Below, one piece after another: positions 1 to 4,308 of a DNA stretch of 51,363 bases. The position numbers were made by a program, and so were the translations under genes. The DNA lies in assembly GCA_023511915.1 (NCBI GenBank), contig JAIMAN010000013.1, forward strand, positions 1 through 51,363, read 5' to 3'. Positions within the stretch are counted from its first letter, which is position 1. Each line of letters begins with the position of its first letter. Origin of the DNA: Armatimonadota bacterium (lineage in GTDB: Bacteria; Armatimonadota; Fimbriimonadia; Fimbriimonadales; GBS-DC). The notes beneath the pieces were generated by a model. The model did no database searches. It was not told the origin of the DNA and saw nothing but the letters and a program-made list of their open reading frames with translations.

Positions 1-66
1 GCCCAAGCCGCCGAAGCCGCCAAAACCGCCGCCGCCCAAGCCGCCGAAGCCGCCAAAACCGCCAAG
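1..66. repeat. 33-bp tandem repeat inside pilQ
   Basis: Two adjacent 33-bp units (1-33 and 34-66) are nearly identical, differing in the last few bases. On the minus strand they encode an 11-residue Gly/Phe/Leu unit of pilQ. More units may lie beyond the left edge. The array could change length by slippage. Confidence 0.8.
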
Positions 67-558
67 ACCGCCGCCACCGCTCTGCAGCTCATACTGAGCG
101 TAGTTGATGAGGGTGCCTCCAAGCAGCGCGGCAATCAGCGTGGGGCTAGCGTAGTTCAGCTGCACCTTCTCGGGCAGGTTCAGACGGACGCCCTCCTCAG
201 GCGTTGTAGTGTCTACATCCGGCGCAATCGGAGTCTCTTCAGGTTGACGCACCGTGACGAAGTAGACACCACTCTCGACGCGATAGGTCAGGTTCAGCGG
301 GCGCAGGATGTTGTCCAGCGCGACGGTGAACGGCACATCCGTCAGCGAGACGGTCACTGTACCTTGCACATTCGGGTCGAGCGTGTAGCTGACGCCAACG
401 CTGTCGAACAGCTGCTTCAGTACGAAGCGCACATCCGCCTGATCGTACTTGACCGTGACTCGGCGCTGCGTGGGGTCGCCGCCCTGCTGCGCCAGCAGCG
501 GGGACGCCTGCGCCGCTACCAAAACCGCAATCGCTGCCAGTATCAGTTTGGTTTTCAT
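1..558 (-). CDS. pilQ: PilQ-type secretin, N-terminal part (runs off left edge)
   Basis: The frame is open from an ATG at 558 to the window edge, 186 codons with no stop, so this is the N-terminus of a longer protein. It starts with a signal peptide (MKTKLILAAIAVLVAAQAS, cleavage near LLAQ), then a secretin/TonB short N-terminal (STN) domain at about residues 32-105 (KYDQADVRFVLKQLFD, NILRPLNLTYRVE), then an N-type domain that breaks into a Gly/Phe-rich run at the edge. A strong Shine-Dalgarno GGAGGTAGAACG precedes the ATG. As the last gene after pilM-N-O-P it should be the outer-membrane secretin through which the type IV pilus exits. The ring-forming C-terminal domain lies outside the window. 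Confidence 0.85.
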   Translation of the reverse strand, partial: MKTKLILAAIAVLVAAQASPLLAQQGGDPTQRRVTVKYDQADVRFVLKQLFDSVGVSYTLDPNVQGTVTVSLTDVPFTVALDNILRPLNLTYRVESGVYFVTVRQPEETPIAPDVDTTTPEEGVRLNLPEKVQLNYASPTLIAALLGGTLINYAQYELQSGGGGLGGFGGFGGLGGGGFGGFGGLG

Positions 559-602
559 CGTTCTACCTCCATGCATATTACGCTTCTGCGGGTGTTCTGT
601 TT

Positions 603-1328
603 CTAAATGTCGGGCGCGCGTCCGCCGCGTCCACCGCCGGGCGCGCCCAATCCGCCTGCGCCAGGTGCGCCTGGAGGCGCGCCAGGTCCGCCGCCGCGCG
701 GCGCGCCAAAGCCTGCACCGCCGCCGCCGACATTGCCAGGCGGCTCGTAGGGTACGCGCACCTCACGCGGGTTGCCCTTCGAGCGGCGGAGAATCAGCCC
801 TGTCTCGGTAATTGATGCCACGCGGAACTCGCCGACCATATCGCCTGGATAGACGATGCGGGGCAGCTCGCCCTCCTGCTCGAGGATTGCGGAGACCGTT
901 GCCCCGATGATGATGCCCGCCACCCGACGGCGCGGCTGCGGTTCGAACGGTTCGGGCAGCTCCACCTTCGGCGGTTTGGGCGGGCTTGCCAGCACGAAGT
1001 AGCGTGCGGGGTCAAAGGCGTCCGCTTGCATCGCCTCCACCTCTTCGGGTAGGGGCGCGAACGGGTCGCGGCGCGGGGTGAACTGCGGGCGCGCCGCTGC
1101 GGGCTGGGGCGCCGCCGCCATCGTCGTTGGAGGCGGCGGCGTGAATCCGCCACTCGGAGACGGGGGCGCCAGACCACCGCCATTGCGGTCAATATCGGGC
1201 GGTGTTGGCGGCGGTTGCGACGCACTGTTGTCCCCGCCACCGCCCGTGAACACCAATAGCAGCGCGATGGCAATCACCACCAGCACAATCACCGCTACCG
1301 CCAACGCGATTTGCGTTTCCTTCTTCAT
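603..1328 (-). CDS. pilP: PilP-like type IV pilus protein
   Basis: 241 residues. It has an N-terminal membrane anchor (residues 5-28), then a Pro/Gly-rich linker, then a PilP-like segment starting at RRDPFAPL (about 86) and a compact beta domain (VAGIIIGATVSAILEQE through REVRVPYEP). The C-terminus is a Gly/Pro/Ala-rich tail of about 45 residues. Classical PilP is a lipoprotein, but no lipobox is visible here, so this one looks anchored by a transmembrane helix. In the pilus machine PilP links the PilN/PilO inner-membrane ring to the PilQ secretin. It sits between pilO and pilQ, with SD AGGTGAGCC before the ATG. The family call rests on gene order and the RDPF motif. Confidence 0.8.
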   Translation of the reverse strand: MKKETQIALAVAVIVLVVIAIALLLVFTGGGGDNSASQPPPTPPDIDRNGGGLAPPSPSGGFTPPPPTTMAAAPQPAAARPQFTPRRDPFAPLPEEVEAMQADAFDPARYFVLASPPKPPKVELPEPFEPQPRRRVAGIIIGATVSAILEQEGELPRIVYPGDMVGEFRVASITETGLILRRSKGNPREVRVPYEPPGNVGGGGAGFGAPRGGGPGAPPGAPGAGGLGAPGGGRGGRAPDI

Positions 1329-1373
1329 TCTGGCTCACCTCTGAATTCGCGTCTCATCGGCAAACTCCTGCCG

Positions 1374-2102
1374 TTAGGGACCCGACGCGCCGAAGCCCCC
1401 CCCGAAACCGCCGCCAAAGCCGCCGCCGAAACCACCCGGCGCGCCGCCCGCACCTGCCTGCGGCGAGGACGGCACATTCGGACCCGGTCGGTCGCCGTTG
1501 CGCGGGTAAACGAACGCCACGAGCGTGTAGCTACCAATCAGATTCGGGCTCATCCCCGAAATCGTTAGCCCGTCGACCAGCACCACCAAGTTCGGCACAT
1601 CGTTCCATTTTCGGACATGGTTGAGCAATCCTTCAAAGGACGACGCGCGCACTTGTACCGTGCCCAACGGAAAGACCAGCGCGAGCGCGGGAATCGCGTT
1701 CGGGTCGTTCGGGGGCGGCGGCATCGCAACGGTGTAGAGCCGCTGCACGCCCGTTTTCGCGGGCCAAGCCTCCAGTTTTTTGGCGATCTCGCGCGTCATG
1801 TCGGGATACTGCATCCACGCCTTGAGGCGGTCGCTGAGGTCGATGGTGTTGACGGGCATCTTAGCGCGGTCGATGGCTGCCAAGTCGCGGTTCGCCTGCT
1901 CCACGCGCGCTTGCGCCTGCTGCACCAGTTGCCGCGCACGGGGAATCTGTGCGACCTTCTGCTCCAGCTGGGCGATATTGTCCTCGTGATATTTGATGTT
2001 CTGCAGGGTCGGGCGGATGCCAAGCAGATAGATTGCGGCAGCCACCACGATGGTCGCCACCAGCCCGATTGAAACCTTCGCGAACATGCTGAGTCCTTTC
2101 AT
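1374..2102 (-). CDS. pilO: PilO type IV pilus inner-membrane protein
   Basis: 242 residues from the ATG at 2102, which follows SD AAGGAGGCTGAC. An upstream in-frame ATG at 2207 would overlap pilN and is unlikely. There is one transmembrane helix (residues 9-27), a coiled coil (NIKYHEDNIAQLEQKVAQI through about residue 70), then a ferredoxin-like PilO domain (MPPPPNDPNAIPALALVFPL, FEGLLNHVRKWNDVPNLV). The tail is a pure Gly/Phe repeat (GGFGGGFGGGFGG). PilO pairs with PilN in the alignment subcomplex of the type IV pilus. The gene begins 10 bp after pilN ends. Confidence 0.9.
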   Translation of the reverse strand: MKGLSMFAKVSIGLVATIVVAAAIYLLGIRPTLQNIKYHEDNIAQLEQKVAQIPRARQLVQQAQARVEQANRDLAAIDRAKMPVNTIDLSDRLKAWMQYPDMTREIAKKLEAWPAKTGVQRLYTVAMPPPPNDPNAIPALALVFPLGTVQVRASSFEGLLNHVRKWNDVPNLVVLVDGLTISGMSPNLIGSYTLVAFVYPRNGDRPGPNVPSSPQAGAGGAPGGFGGGFGGGFGGGFGASGP

Positions 2103-2112
2103 GTCAGCCTCC

Positions 2113-2985
2113 TTAGATGCCCATTCCGCGTCCACCCAAAGCCGATGGAGGCGCAGGTGCACCGCCGCCGAATCCGCCCAGCGTGGGCAGCCCACCGCCC
2201 CCACCAATACTCAGACCGGGCACACTCCCTGGCGGCGCAGGGGGTGCAATCGGCTCCTTGAGGTACGCCACCACTTGGAACGGCATCAGGTTCGCAGGCG
2301 AGCTGCCTGCTTGTGTCCCACCGCCGCCTGCAAAGCCGCCGCCGAATCCGCCGCCAGGCGTGCCCAGCGAAGGCGGGGGTGGAGGCGGCGCGCCGCCGCC
2401 AACGCCTGACAAGCCGCCCACCATCGGTCCCGCAGGCGCGCCGCCGCCAAAACCGCCAAACCCAGGCGCCGTCATCCCCGCTTGACCGCCCCCCGAAGGA
2501 TAGCCCGGCAACGACGCCGAAGTGAGGCTGACCGCCGTGAACAGCGGGCAGTTATACATCGTCTGCAAATACAGACCCAGCTCGCGAATCCCCTTCGTGA
2601 AGCCCGACAGCTGCAGCTGGTTGCCCTGCGCCACTTGCATTCCTGCGTAGCGCACGCGCGGCGAGGTGTAGCGGCTCACCTCACTGTAGAGTTCGGGGTA
2701 CTTGAGGTTGTGCTGCTGCACGCGCTTGACCCACTCCGCTTTGCCTAGCGCAATCGCCGCCGAGTCGATGAGCGCGTTCGCCTGATTGTAGAGGCTATCC
2801 ACTTGCTGCGCTTGCGCCTCTAACTCGCTCTTGCGCGCCTGCAGCTCGCGCAGCGTGCCTTGTGCGCTCACCATCCAGAACGCCATCAGCGCGTTGACCA
2901 CAATAAACAGCACCACCAGCAGCGCGATAATCTGCTTGTTGATCTTCCGCTGGCGTACATAATCGGGTACAAGGTTCAGTTTCAT
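2113..2985 (-). CDS. pilN: PilN type IV pilus inner-membrane protein
   Basis: 290 residues. The opening MKLNLVPDYVRQRK resembles the cytoplasmic PilN motif that docks on PilM. A transmembrane helix spans about 19-40, followed by a coiled coil (LRELQARKSELEAQAQQVD) and a PilN core to about residue 150. The last roughly 130 residues are Gly/Pro/Phe-rich, interrupted by a short ordered piece (PFQVVAYLKEPIAPP) at about 231. Usual PilN proteins are near 190 residues, so the low-complexity section accounts for the extra length. SD GGAGGCGG precedes the ATG, 15 bp after pilM. Confidence 0.9.
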   Translation of the reverse strand: MKLNLVPDYVRQRKINKQIIALLVVLFIVVNALMAFWMVSAQGTLRELQARKSELEAQAQQVDSLYNQANALIDSAAIALGKAEWVKRVQQHNLKYPELYSEVSRYTSPRVRYAGMQVAQGNQLQLSGFTKGIRELGLYLQTMYNCPLFTAVSLTSASLPGYPSGGGQAGMTAPGFGGFGGGAPAGPMVGGLSGVGGGAPPPPPPSLGTPGGGFGGGFAGGGGTQAGSSPANLMPFQVVAYLKEPIAPPAPPGSVPGLSIGGGGGLPTLGGFGGGAPAPPSALGGRGMGI

Positions 2986-3000
2986 CCGTGACCGCCTCCG

Positions 3001-4308
3001 TTAAAAGCTCGCGTGCAAGCCCATCCCGACCGCCACCGCCATCAGGTGCGCGTTGGCGGCGACATATTCAGGACCATGCCGCTTCACCTGCAACTGGACG
3101 CCTTTAAAGGGGTTCCCCACCACCGTAGGGATTCCTACCGCTTGGGCGATGAATTGATCCAGATTCGGCATAATTGCCCCACCGCCGCACAGCACGATGG
3201 TCTGCACATCCGCGTCGGGGTTGCGGCTGCGGAAGTATTCGATGGAGCGGCGGATCTCGCTGACCAGCTCTTCCAACAGCGGGTAAATCGCGAGGAATAC
3301 TTCCGTCTTGCGCGGGTCGGTCGGCGATTGCACAGGTAGCGCAGGCTCTGGCTCCGCAGTGGGCGCGTCTGCAGGCTCGGGTTCGCTGGGCGTCGCAAAC
3401 GGCGAGGGCGGGATGTCGGGTTCAGGCGCGGTGAACGAGCCAGGCGTCATAAACGGCGACGGCTCGGGCGCAATCGTCGGTTCGCTGCCCAAGCCCGGCG
3501 TGTAAAACCCGCCCGTGGGCATGCCAGGCACGCCGAACGGCGAGGTCGCCTGCGGGATTTGATCGATCAGCACCTCCGCCAGTTGCGCCTTGAGCTGTTC
3601 GGCGTCCGCCTCCGAAATCATCAGCCGCTCGGCAATCGCGCGGGTGAGCATGTTGCCGCCTGTAGGCAAGATGCGCGGGAAGCTGAGGTAGCCCTGACTG
3701 TAGATATCGATCGAGGTCGCCTCCGCACCGAGATTGACCACCGCCACATTCTGGTTTTGCAGGTCGGGTTGCGTGAGGAGCAGGCTGCGCGCCAACGCCA
3801 ACGGCTCGACATCGATGGCATACGGCTCCAGCCCCAACTTGTCGGCGATGTCGACCAGCCCGTCGACGGCGTCCTGCTGCGCAACCGCCAGCACGACCTC
3901 CATGTTGTCGGCGCTGGGGTTCGCGCCAGGGCGACGCACCACCTCATACGCCGACTGCACGCGCGTGTCAGCGAACGGGATGTTGCGCCCAATCTCCCAG
4001 TCCATGTGCTGCTTGAGTTCGACAGCGTTCATGCGCGGCACTTCGAGGATGCGCACCACCACCGAGTTTTGCCCTGCGAGCGCGAACGCTGCCTGCTTCG
4101 TGCCGACGCCCGTCTCGGCGAGCAGTTTCTTCAAAGTCGCCGCGACCGCCGCCTTGTCTACAACGCCTGTGCTATCGACCGCGCCTTCAGGGGTCGGCGC
4201 GATGCCGATGTTCGTCACCACAGGCGGACGCCCGGCACGCACCTCCGCTACCTTGATAAAGCGGCTCCCTAAGTCGATTCCCACGACGATGCCTGGTTGT
4301 TTCGCCAT
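3001..4308 (-). CDS. pilM: PilM actin-like pilus assembly ATPase
   Basis: 435 residues of the FtsA/actin-like fold. The phosphate-1 motif is VVGIDLGSRFIKVAEV (8-23); the second nucleotide motif is VVNLGAEATSIDIYSQG (190-206); the adenosine motif is IVLCGGGAIMPNLDQFI near 375. PilM is cytoplasmic and binds the PilN N-terminus. A Pro/Glu/Ser-rich insertion of about 80 residues (252-333) splits the actin core and is unusual; most PilM proteins are near 350 residues. It is the first gene of the operon, with SD AGGAGAACGGC and a -10 box at 4378-4383. Confidence 0.92.
   Translation of the reverse strand: MAKQPGIVVGIDLGSRFIKVAEVRAGRPPVVTNIGIAPTPEGAVDSTGVVDKAAVAATLKKLLAETGVGTKQAAFALAGQNSVVVRILEVPRMNAVELKQHMDWEIGRNIPFADTRVQSAYEVVRRPGANPSADNMEVVLAVAQQDAVDGLVDIADKLGLEPYAIDVEPLALARSLLLTQPDLQNQNVAVVNLGAEATSIDIYSQGYLSFPRILPTGGNMLTRAIAERLMISEADAEQLKAQLAEVLIDQIPQATSPFGVPGMPTGGFYTPGLGSEPTIAPEPSPFMTPGSFTAPEPDIPPSPFATPSEPEPADAPTAEPEPALPVQSPTDPRKTEVFLAIYPLLEELVSEIRRSIEYFRSRNPDADVQTIVLCGGGAIMPNLDQFIAQAVGIPTVVGNPFKGVQLQVKRHGPEYVAANAHLMAVAVGMGLHASF

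Follow-up and report, generated by a model that had tools for sequence, protein, structure and literature searches.

In Neisseria, the C-terminal domain of PilP binds the N0 domain of the secretin PilQ, and the largest shifts lie near the first strand and the helix (PMC3441751). VirB7 of Xanthomonas combines a stand-alone N0 domain with a disordered segment; it is reported to oligomerise, and an extra ring has been proposed for it (PMC3093366). Pieces of a secretin N-module occur as separate proteins, named GspDN1-3, in a mitochondrial type II system, where GspDN1 may contact GspD (PMC8134430), and RcpC of the Tad pilus forms an extra periplasmic ring that lies between the membranes and touches the secretin (PMC12307814). 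Here we describe a gene, called X throughout, from an Armatimonadota bacterium of the order Fimbriimonadales (assembly GCA_023511915.1). The window analysed, 51,363 nucleotides long, is the entire contig C97 (G000:C97:1-51363). X lies between pilP and pilQ in a type IV pilus operon and encodes a signal peptide, a secretin-type N0 domain, the beginning of an N1 domain and a disordered tail rich in Gly and aromatic residues. It is most likely an accessory periplasmic part of the pilus machine. Its conservation across very distant members of this little-studied phylum suggests a pilus part, and we found no description of it in the open-licence literature searched.

Gene X between pilP and pilQ

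Open reading frame (ORF) calling placed all pil genes of the window on the minus strand, and the window, contig C121 of the same genome and the corresponding loci of relatives together give the operon order pilM-N-O-P-X-Q-aroKB. The 5' part of X occupies positions 1..576, with a likely start codon (MKTKL...) at 558 as read from the ORF. Its N0 (STN) domain lies at 250..462, as placed by a Pfam STN match and by alignment with the domain in an AlphaFold2 model of the L012 orthologue, and the visible Gly/Phe/Leu-rich start of the tail lies at 1..81. The contig terminus falls inside the tail repeat, and the tail of this genome is seen in two pieces, its start on C97 and, after a gap, its end on C121. 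The latter, a separate 6-kb contig (locus L052), carries the X C-terminus (...GGGGFGR and a stop codon), the true secretin, and a fused shikimate kinase/3-dehydroquinate synthase gene. The sequence-only reading had attributed a GGFGGFGGLG segment to PilQ. The Gly-rich stretch is real, with a Gly-segment score of 16, but the protein that carries it is X, and the 576-1 frame is ruled out as the N-terminus of PilQ since the secretin is the next gene. Assembly breaks fall within or near X at window position 1, at the ends of L005 and L009, and at the start of L050; gene callers will meet fragments of X at such contig ends and may label them PilQ. An easy misannotation is thereby corrected, and the breaks at X are explained.

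In relatives, X is a separate, complete protein of 193-310 amino acids in most of the loci where its end is seen, and the secretin (about 540 amino acids in near relatives) follows it. A Pfam search of the 576-1 frame found the STN/N0 match alone. The secretin barrel (PF00263) was not found in X; complete orthologues stop after the tail, and PF00263 is found in the next gene. Nor did X match Secretin_N (PF03958), the start of N1 alone aligning to PilQ. The AlphaFold2 model of the L012 orthologue has a signal helix, an N0 domain at residues 33-103 with a predicted local distance difference test (pLDDT) score of 95-97, a short helix at 139-145 and then a tail without structure (pLDDT below 50). 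The nearest match to the X N0 is the N0 of PilQ, both by sequence (4ar0, E value 8.8e-11) and by comparison of the modelled fold. When X was compared with the N-terminus of the neighbouring PilQ, hhalign gave a probability of 99.9 and an E value of 4e-31 over 151 columns, which span the signal peptide, N0, and the sequence up to the first helix of N1. On this alignment X is a paralogue of the N-terminal half of PilQ, and it resembles a duplicate of the secretin's first half with a tail placed after the start of N1; the direction and time of the duplication we infer. In the true PilQ, N1 is interrupted by a long insertion that contains a Gly-rich loop, the 69-position Secretin_N match being spread across residues 131-309, and the protein retains an N0-like region of its own. 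The idea that X is the N0 lost by a split PilQ is unsupported for that reason.

A profile of X built without the tail matched 263 of 291 Armatimonadota genomes and 184 of the 194 of good quality, the matches in distant families being partly secretins or other N0 proteins. For a sample not selected for X, PilM was used as the query in 42 genomes, mostly ones in which the X match was weak or missing, and 20 regions were fetched. Five of these end before PilQ and were excluded; X lies between PilP and PilQ in 13 of the 15 that run from PilM to PilQ, its matches in L164, L165 and L170 (scores 15-21) resting additionally on position and tail. The other two regions (L152 and L153) are compact operons in which a long secretin directly follows PilP. 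Outside the phylum, where X was sought in plasmid records, 10 records from Acinetobacter, Escherichia and Neisseria gave partial matches of less than 60% identity, one of them annotated as PilQ. Several N0/STN matches per frame were seen in three frames of 343, 547 and 998 amino acids (G091:C106:131556-132479, G241:C9:17784-18593 and G039:C264:2538-3230), which probably encode proteins with strings of N0 domains.

The same genome holds a second pilMNOPQ-like set, on contig C98 (L148 2596-7813), with PilM, PilN, PilO and PilP of 388, 200, 218 and 218 amino acids and a secretin of 710 amino acids. It has no gene between P and Q and no X, and its Gly-segment scores range from 2.0 to 5.3. The expectation that normal homologues are compact was thus confirmed, no Gly segment of this set scoring above 5.3. 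Since the compact set lacks both X and the Gly-rich segments, the two features go together and are not a genome-wide habit.

As to the identity of the machine, PilM (3001..4308) matches the curated family TIGR01175 with 209.8 bits against a cut-off of 133, and it also matches PilM_2. The PilN family profile (gene at 2113..2985) matches the PilN of 3jc8 with an E value of 1.1e-9. PilO, a GspM/PilO-like protein (1374..2102), gave a weak T2SSM match below the cut-off (E value 3e-4), and the PilP-like protein (603..1328), which has an inner-membrane anchor, a Pro-rich linker and an HR-like domain, gave a profile match to the GspC HR domain 3oss (E value 0.013) and no Pfam match; both are assigned mainly from gene order. 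Four PilT-family ATPases of the genome score above the TIGR01420 cut-off, which argues for a pilus.

The X tail and the other Gly-rich segments

Tails of X have a median length of 71 residues and a range of 20-109 (n = 65; this set leaves out of the 70 loci holding at least five of the six genes the window, L009 and L005, which are cut by contig ends, L004 with a suspected collapsed repeat, and L119, the scores of L005 and L119 being below 10). After Gly, the commonest residue in 43 of them is F, in nine M, in six Y and in seven another; spacings of 3-5 dominate between aromatic residues, and F, M and Y exchange at similar spacing. The way segments were found in this set partly favours the absence of acidic residues, and a fixed window was used instead for a second set of 78, made up of 66 of the 70 loci (all except the window, L004, L005 and L009) and 12 of the 13 PilM-anchored ones (L170, whose tail has unknown bases, being left out). 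Over the last 60 residues, these 78 average 65% Gly, 13% F/Y/W, 0.0% Lys, 0.6% Asp plus Glu and 0.4% Pro. Of the proteins, 39 end in R, 20 in F, 10 in Y and two in W (71 of 78 together), at least one Arg lies within the final six residues in 68 of 78, and Arg makes up 19% of the last five positions compared with 1.3% at positions -41 to -60. No other portion of the tail is as well conserved as its C-terminal end. In several distant families the tail turns to Gly/Ser/Asn with Tyr and Arg. Overall, the tails fit a sticker-and-spacer composition, with Gly/Ser/Asn spacers, regular aromatics, Arg, and scarce Lys and acidic residues.

Gly-rich segments stand out in the neighbouring proteins as well. 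The PilP tail, rich in Gly, Pro and Ala (621..728), scored 12.8, the GGFGGG tail of PilO (1380..1454, with a tandem repeat at 1388-1433) scored 12.0 and PilN scored 9.8, and the next best of the 44 ORFs in the window scored 4.0; the X frame is outside this list, having been displaced by a longer spurious plus-strand ORF, and was scored separately. For PilO and PilP these values bear out the first description of their segments. In PilN a single stretch of about 130 Gly-rich residues had been proposed; the Gly-richness is genuine, but it is divided into an insertion at residues 158-233 approximately (2287..2514) and a C-terminal tail at residues 243-290 (2116..2259), both of them rich in Pro as well as Gly. 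The AlphaFold2 model of PilN has two strands, a helix, a third strand, the disordered insertion (pLDDT mostly below 50), a fourth strand (234-242) and then the tail. As background, 329 ORFs from 400 kb of a relative with a complete genome and the same guanine-plus-cytosine (GC) content were scored, of which two reached at least 6 and one at least 9. These ORFs and the compact operon of the same genome lead us to reject Gly tails as a general genome habit. At the DNA level, 18 of the 40 GGFGG-type sites of the genome lie at the ends of C97 and C121, in about 4.8 of 2730 kb; the total equals that of a reversed-pattern control (40), so that the clustering alone is the signal. Elsewhere in the genome, a Gly-rich C-terminal stretch was seen at a contig start (L018 1-233, G000:C5), upstream of a tatC-like gene named by eye.

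The segments recur in relatives and are by no means absent from all close ones. Scores of at least 6 were found for X in 68 of 70 loci, a figure biased by the choice of most loci through an X or PilM match, for the PilQ loop in 60 of 67, for PilP in 51 of 67, for PilO in 42 of 70, for PilN in 37 of 70, and for PilM in none of 70. The two X exceptions are L005, at a contig end, and L119. What the proteins share is Gly-richness, which runs through X, PilN, PilO, PilP and the PilQ loop. The proposal of a common composition does not extend further: X tails combine Gly with F, M or Y and have 0.2% Pro, whereas Pro makes up 12-14% and Ala about 9% of the PilN, PilO and PilP segments, and Gln 9% of the PilQ loop. 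The PilN, PilO and PilP segments read more like spacers.

The Pro-rich insertion of PilM had been grouped with these segments, as part of positions 1 to 2985. Alignment with the compact paralogue confirms the insertion (residues 251-333, 3310..3558; 83 residues, 24 of them Pro), but the gene lies outside that interval, and the insertion is Pro-rich, cytoplasmic and separate from the Gly-rich set. In a few families, PilM frames reach about 700-800 amino acids (L165 148-2547, L166 292-2607 and L167 448-2538, from G003, G002 and G007), and the profile matches them as two halves with a long insertion between.

Proposed working of X and its alternatives

In the usual topology of these machines, the Gly-rich parts of PilN, PilO, PilP, PilQ and X are periplasmic and PilM is cytoplasmic. 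Gly-rich parts that lie in the periplasm on interacting proteins fit a role in linking them. We propose that X is exported to the periplasm. It retains the N0 of a secretin and the start of N1, and a disordered tail that finishes in Arg or aromatic residues stands where the rest of a secretin would be. Its N0 could dock at the junction between PilP and the N0 of PilQ, either as an extra layer or as a substitute for the diverged N0 of the secretin. The tails of a ring of X would then make weak, reversible contacts with one another through aromatic residues and Arg, and might also touch the Gly-rich loop in N1 of PilQ and perhaps the Gly-rich segments of PilN, PilO and PilP. Such a compliant collar would join the inner- and outer-membrane parts during filament movement, the Pro/Ala segments of PilN, PilO and PilP serving mainly as flexible spacers. 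We give this explanation as a whole, with X as a part of the pilus operon, docking through N0 and multivalent tail contacts, an even chance of being right; we are far surer that X is a dedicated machine part than we are of the collar mechanism.

Several observations weigh against the proposal. The structures were modelled as monomers only. Scores fall below 6 for PilN in 33 of 70 loci, for PilO in 28 of 70 and for PilP in 16 of 67, and tails missing in so many relatives cannot all be indispensable to a single common mesh. Beyond the level of the control, no covariation in composition was seen between the X tail and the PilN, PilO and PilP segments: rho for Met was 0.39, compared with 0.40 when their non-Gly parts were used, and coevolution of these compositions is unsupported. 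Covariation with the PilQ loop is modest (rho of 0.42 for Tyr, uncorrected for 30 tests and for shared ancestry). The tail of L119 is Ser-rich and that of L166 repeats Asp-Leu. The L012 secretin scores 165.3 bits against GspD and 158.7 against PilQ, both below the cut-offs, and one study reassigns filament systems of Armatimonadetes to the type II secretion system (PMC6668835). Finally, orphan or tandem copies of X lie away from the pil genes in some genomes, which is hard to explain for a fixed structural part. Head-to-tail triplets occur at L053 1-2911 (G091:C87) and L054 3109-5417 (G094:C101), the latter adjoining genes for DNA gyrase A and a beta-lactamase-family protein; a pair follows a GidA gene at L055 3484-4874, single copies with GGY/GGW tails are found at L056 5772-6584 and L062 5815-6615, and a second X follows aroKB at L058 1870-2640.

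The tails could instead be neutral low complexity, with slippage multiplying the Gly codons of a GC-rich genome wherever periplasmic ends and loops tolerate it; X might still function through its N0, with the tail merely tolerated. Recurrent 24-mers cover 18% of positions within X tails compared with 6% after synonymous shuffling, and a perfect 33-bp tandem repeat lies in the tail at the contig end of the window, so that slippage within X is supported as a feed for tail drift. This is also the part of an earlier suggestion, the spread of a repeat by slippage and recombination, that stands. Spread from gene to gene does not: X shares nine, eight and six 15-mers with PilN, PilO and PilP, compared with 6.0, 11.2 and 4.2 expected from synonymous shuffling, and a single DNA repeat spreading through the operon is therefore unsupported. 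With the PilQ loop 62 are shared and 42 expected, exceeding all shuffles in one of 14 loci. The PilN, PilO and PilP tails have been gained and lost among relatives, as neutral segments might be. In X, however, the tail is kept in the 68 loci noted above despite a folded part that diverges to about 20-30% identity, Lys is absent and acidic residues nearly so, Arg is gathered at the very end, F, M and Y replace one another at similar spacing, and 22 of 68 tails have no recurrent 24-mer at all; the other ORFs of the relative with the same GC content lack such segments. That composition and end are kept through this drift we take as selection on a physical property, and neutrality is an unlikely explanation.

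The well-conserved end could also be read as a signal. X would then be a pilotin- or chaperone-like factor for assembly or targeting, the Gly-rich tail a mere tether across the periplasm, and the Arg/aromatic end a signal for peptidoglycan, for an outer-membrane receptor or for the secretin. The frequency of R, F, Y or W as the last residue and of Arg among the last six would be expected on such a reading, as would the position of X directly before pilQ. A tether has no need of aromatics evenly spaced at 3-5 residues, though. Pilotins are commonly lipoproteins, unlike the listed X orthologues, in which no lipobox Cys was found at the signal peptide. We consider a targeting factor improbable.

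A bolder form of the collar proposal is unlikely. Here, throughout the phylum, a ring of duplicated secretin N0 domains with a dense, prion-like brush of Gly, aromatic residues and Arg would surround the moving filament with a periplasmic gasket both cohesive and permeable, an envelope counterpart of the nuclear-pore mesh in which the stickers change chemistry from lineage to lineage (F, M or Y, or else Tyr and Arg among Gly/Ser/Asn) and the physical property is kept. Very unlikely, lastly, is X as an exported substrate, a Gly/aromatic surface adhesive or coat with N0 as its secretion handle: the copies away from the pil genes and the attachment role thought to fall to the pili of a non-motile Fimbriimonas strain (PMC4072686) favour it, but the single copy at a fixed site before pilQ suggests a structural part, and the VirB7 report describes N0 folds as modules that envelope transporters carry in the periplasm (PMC3093366).

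If X is an accessory part of the pilus machine, as we favour, it would be an uncharacterised type IV pilus component shared across a bacterial phylum of which few members have been cultured. Its tail suggests a low-complexity domain held by composition and not by sequence, in a little-studied bacterial periplasmic setting. The compact second operon of the same genome offers a ready-made control for what the tail adds.

Comparison with known secretin modules

The closest likeness of X is to the N0/N1 part of PilQ itself (Neisseria, 4ar0/4av2), with which it shares the fold and sequence of N0, the signal peptide and the start of N1. It differs in having neither a complete N1 nor a barrel and in carrying a Gly/aromatic tail in their place, and the true PilQ is present beside it. 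In a Foldseek search, the X N0 also matched DotD of Legionella (3ady) and VirB7 of Xanthomonas (2l4w), with an E value of 1.2e-2 each. These are likewise small envelope proteins with one N0 and a disordered segment that serve as accessories of a machine; they belong to type IV secretion, are lipoproteins, and have their disordered part at the N-terminus, whereas X is linked to a pilus, has its tail at the C-terminus, and shows no lipobox in the listed orthologues. The mitochondrial GspDN1-3 proteins are pieces of the Secretin_N (N1-N3) type in a system where N0 was lost, in contrast to X, which is of the N0 type, tailed, and additional to the N0 of the secretin. With RcpC, anchored in the inner membrane, the analogy is one of place only, and no homology is implied.

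For the tail, the nearest likeness is eukaryotic. Prion-like (FET-type) and FG-type domains have aromatics spaced by Gly or by Gly/Ser/Asn, with Arg present and few Lys or acidic residues. The resemblance of the X tail to them is compositional only, and X differs in being bacterial, periplasmic and attached to a secretin N0.

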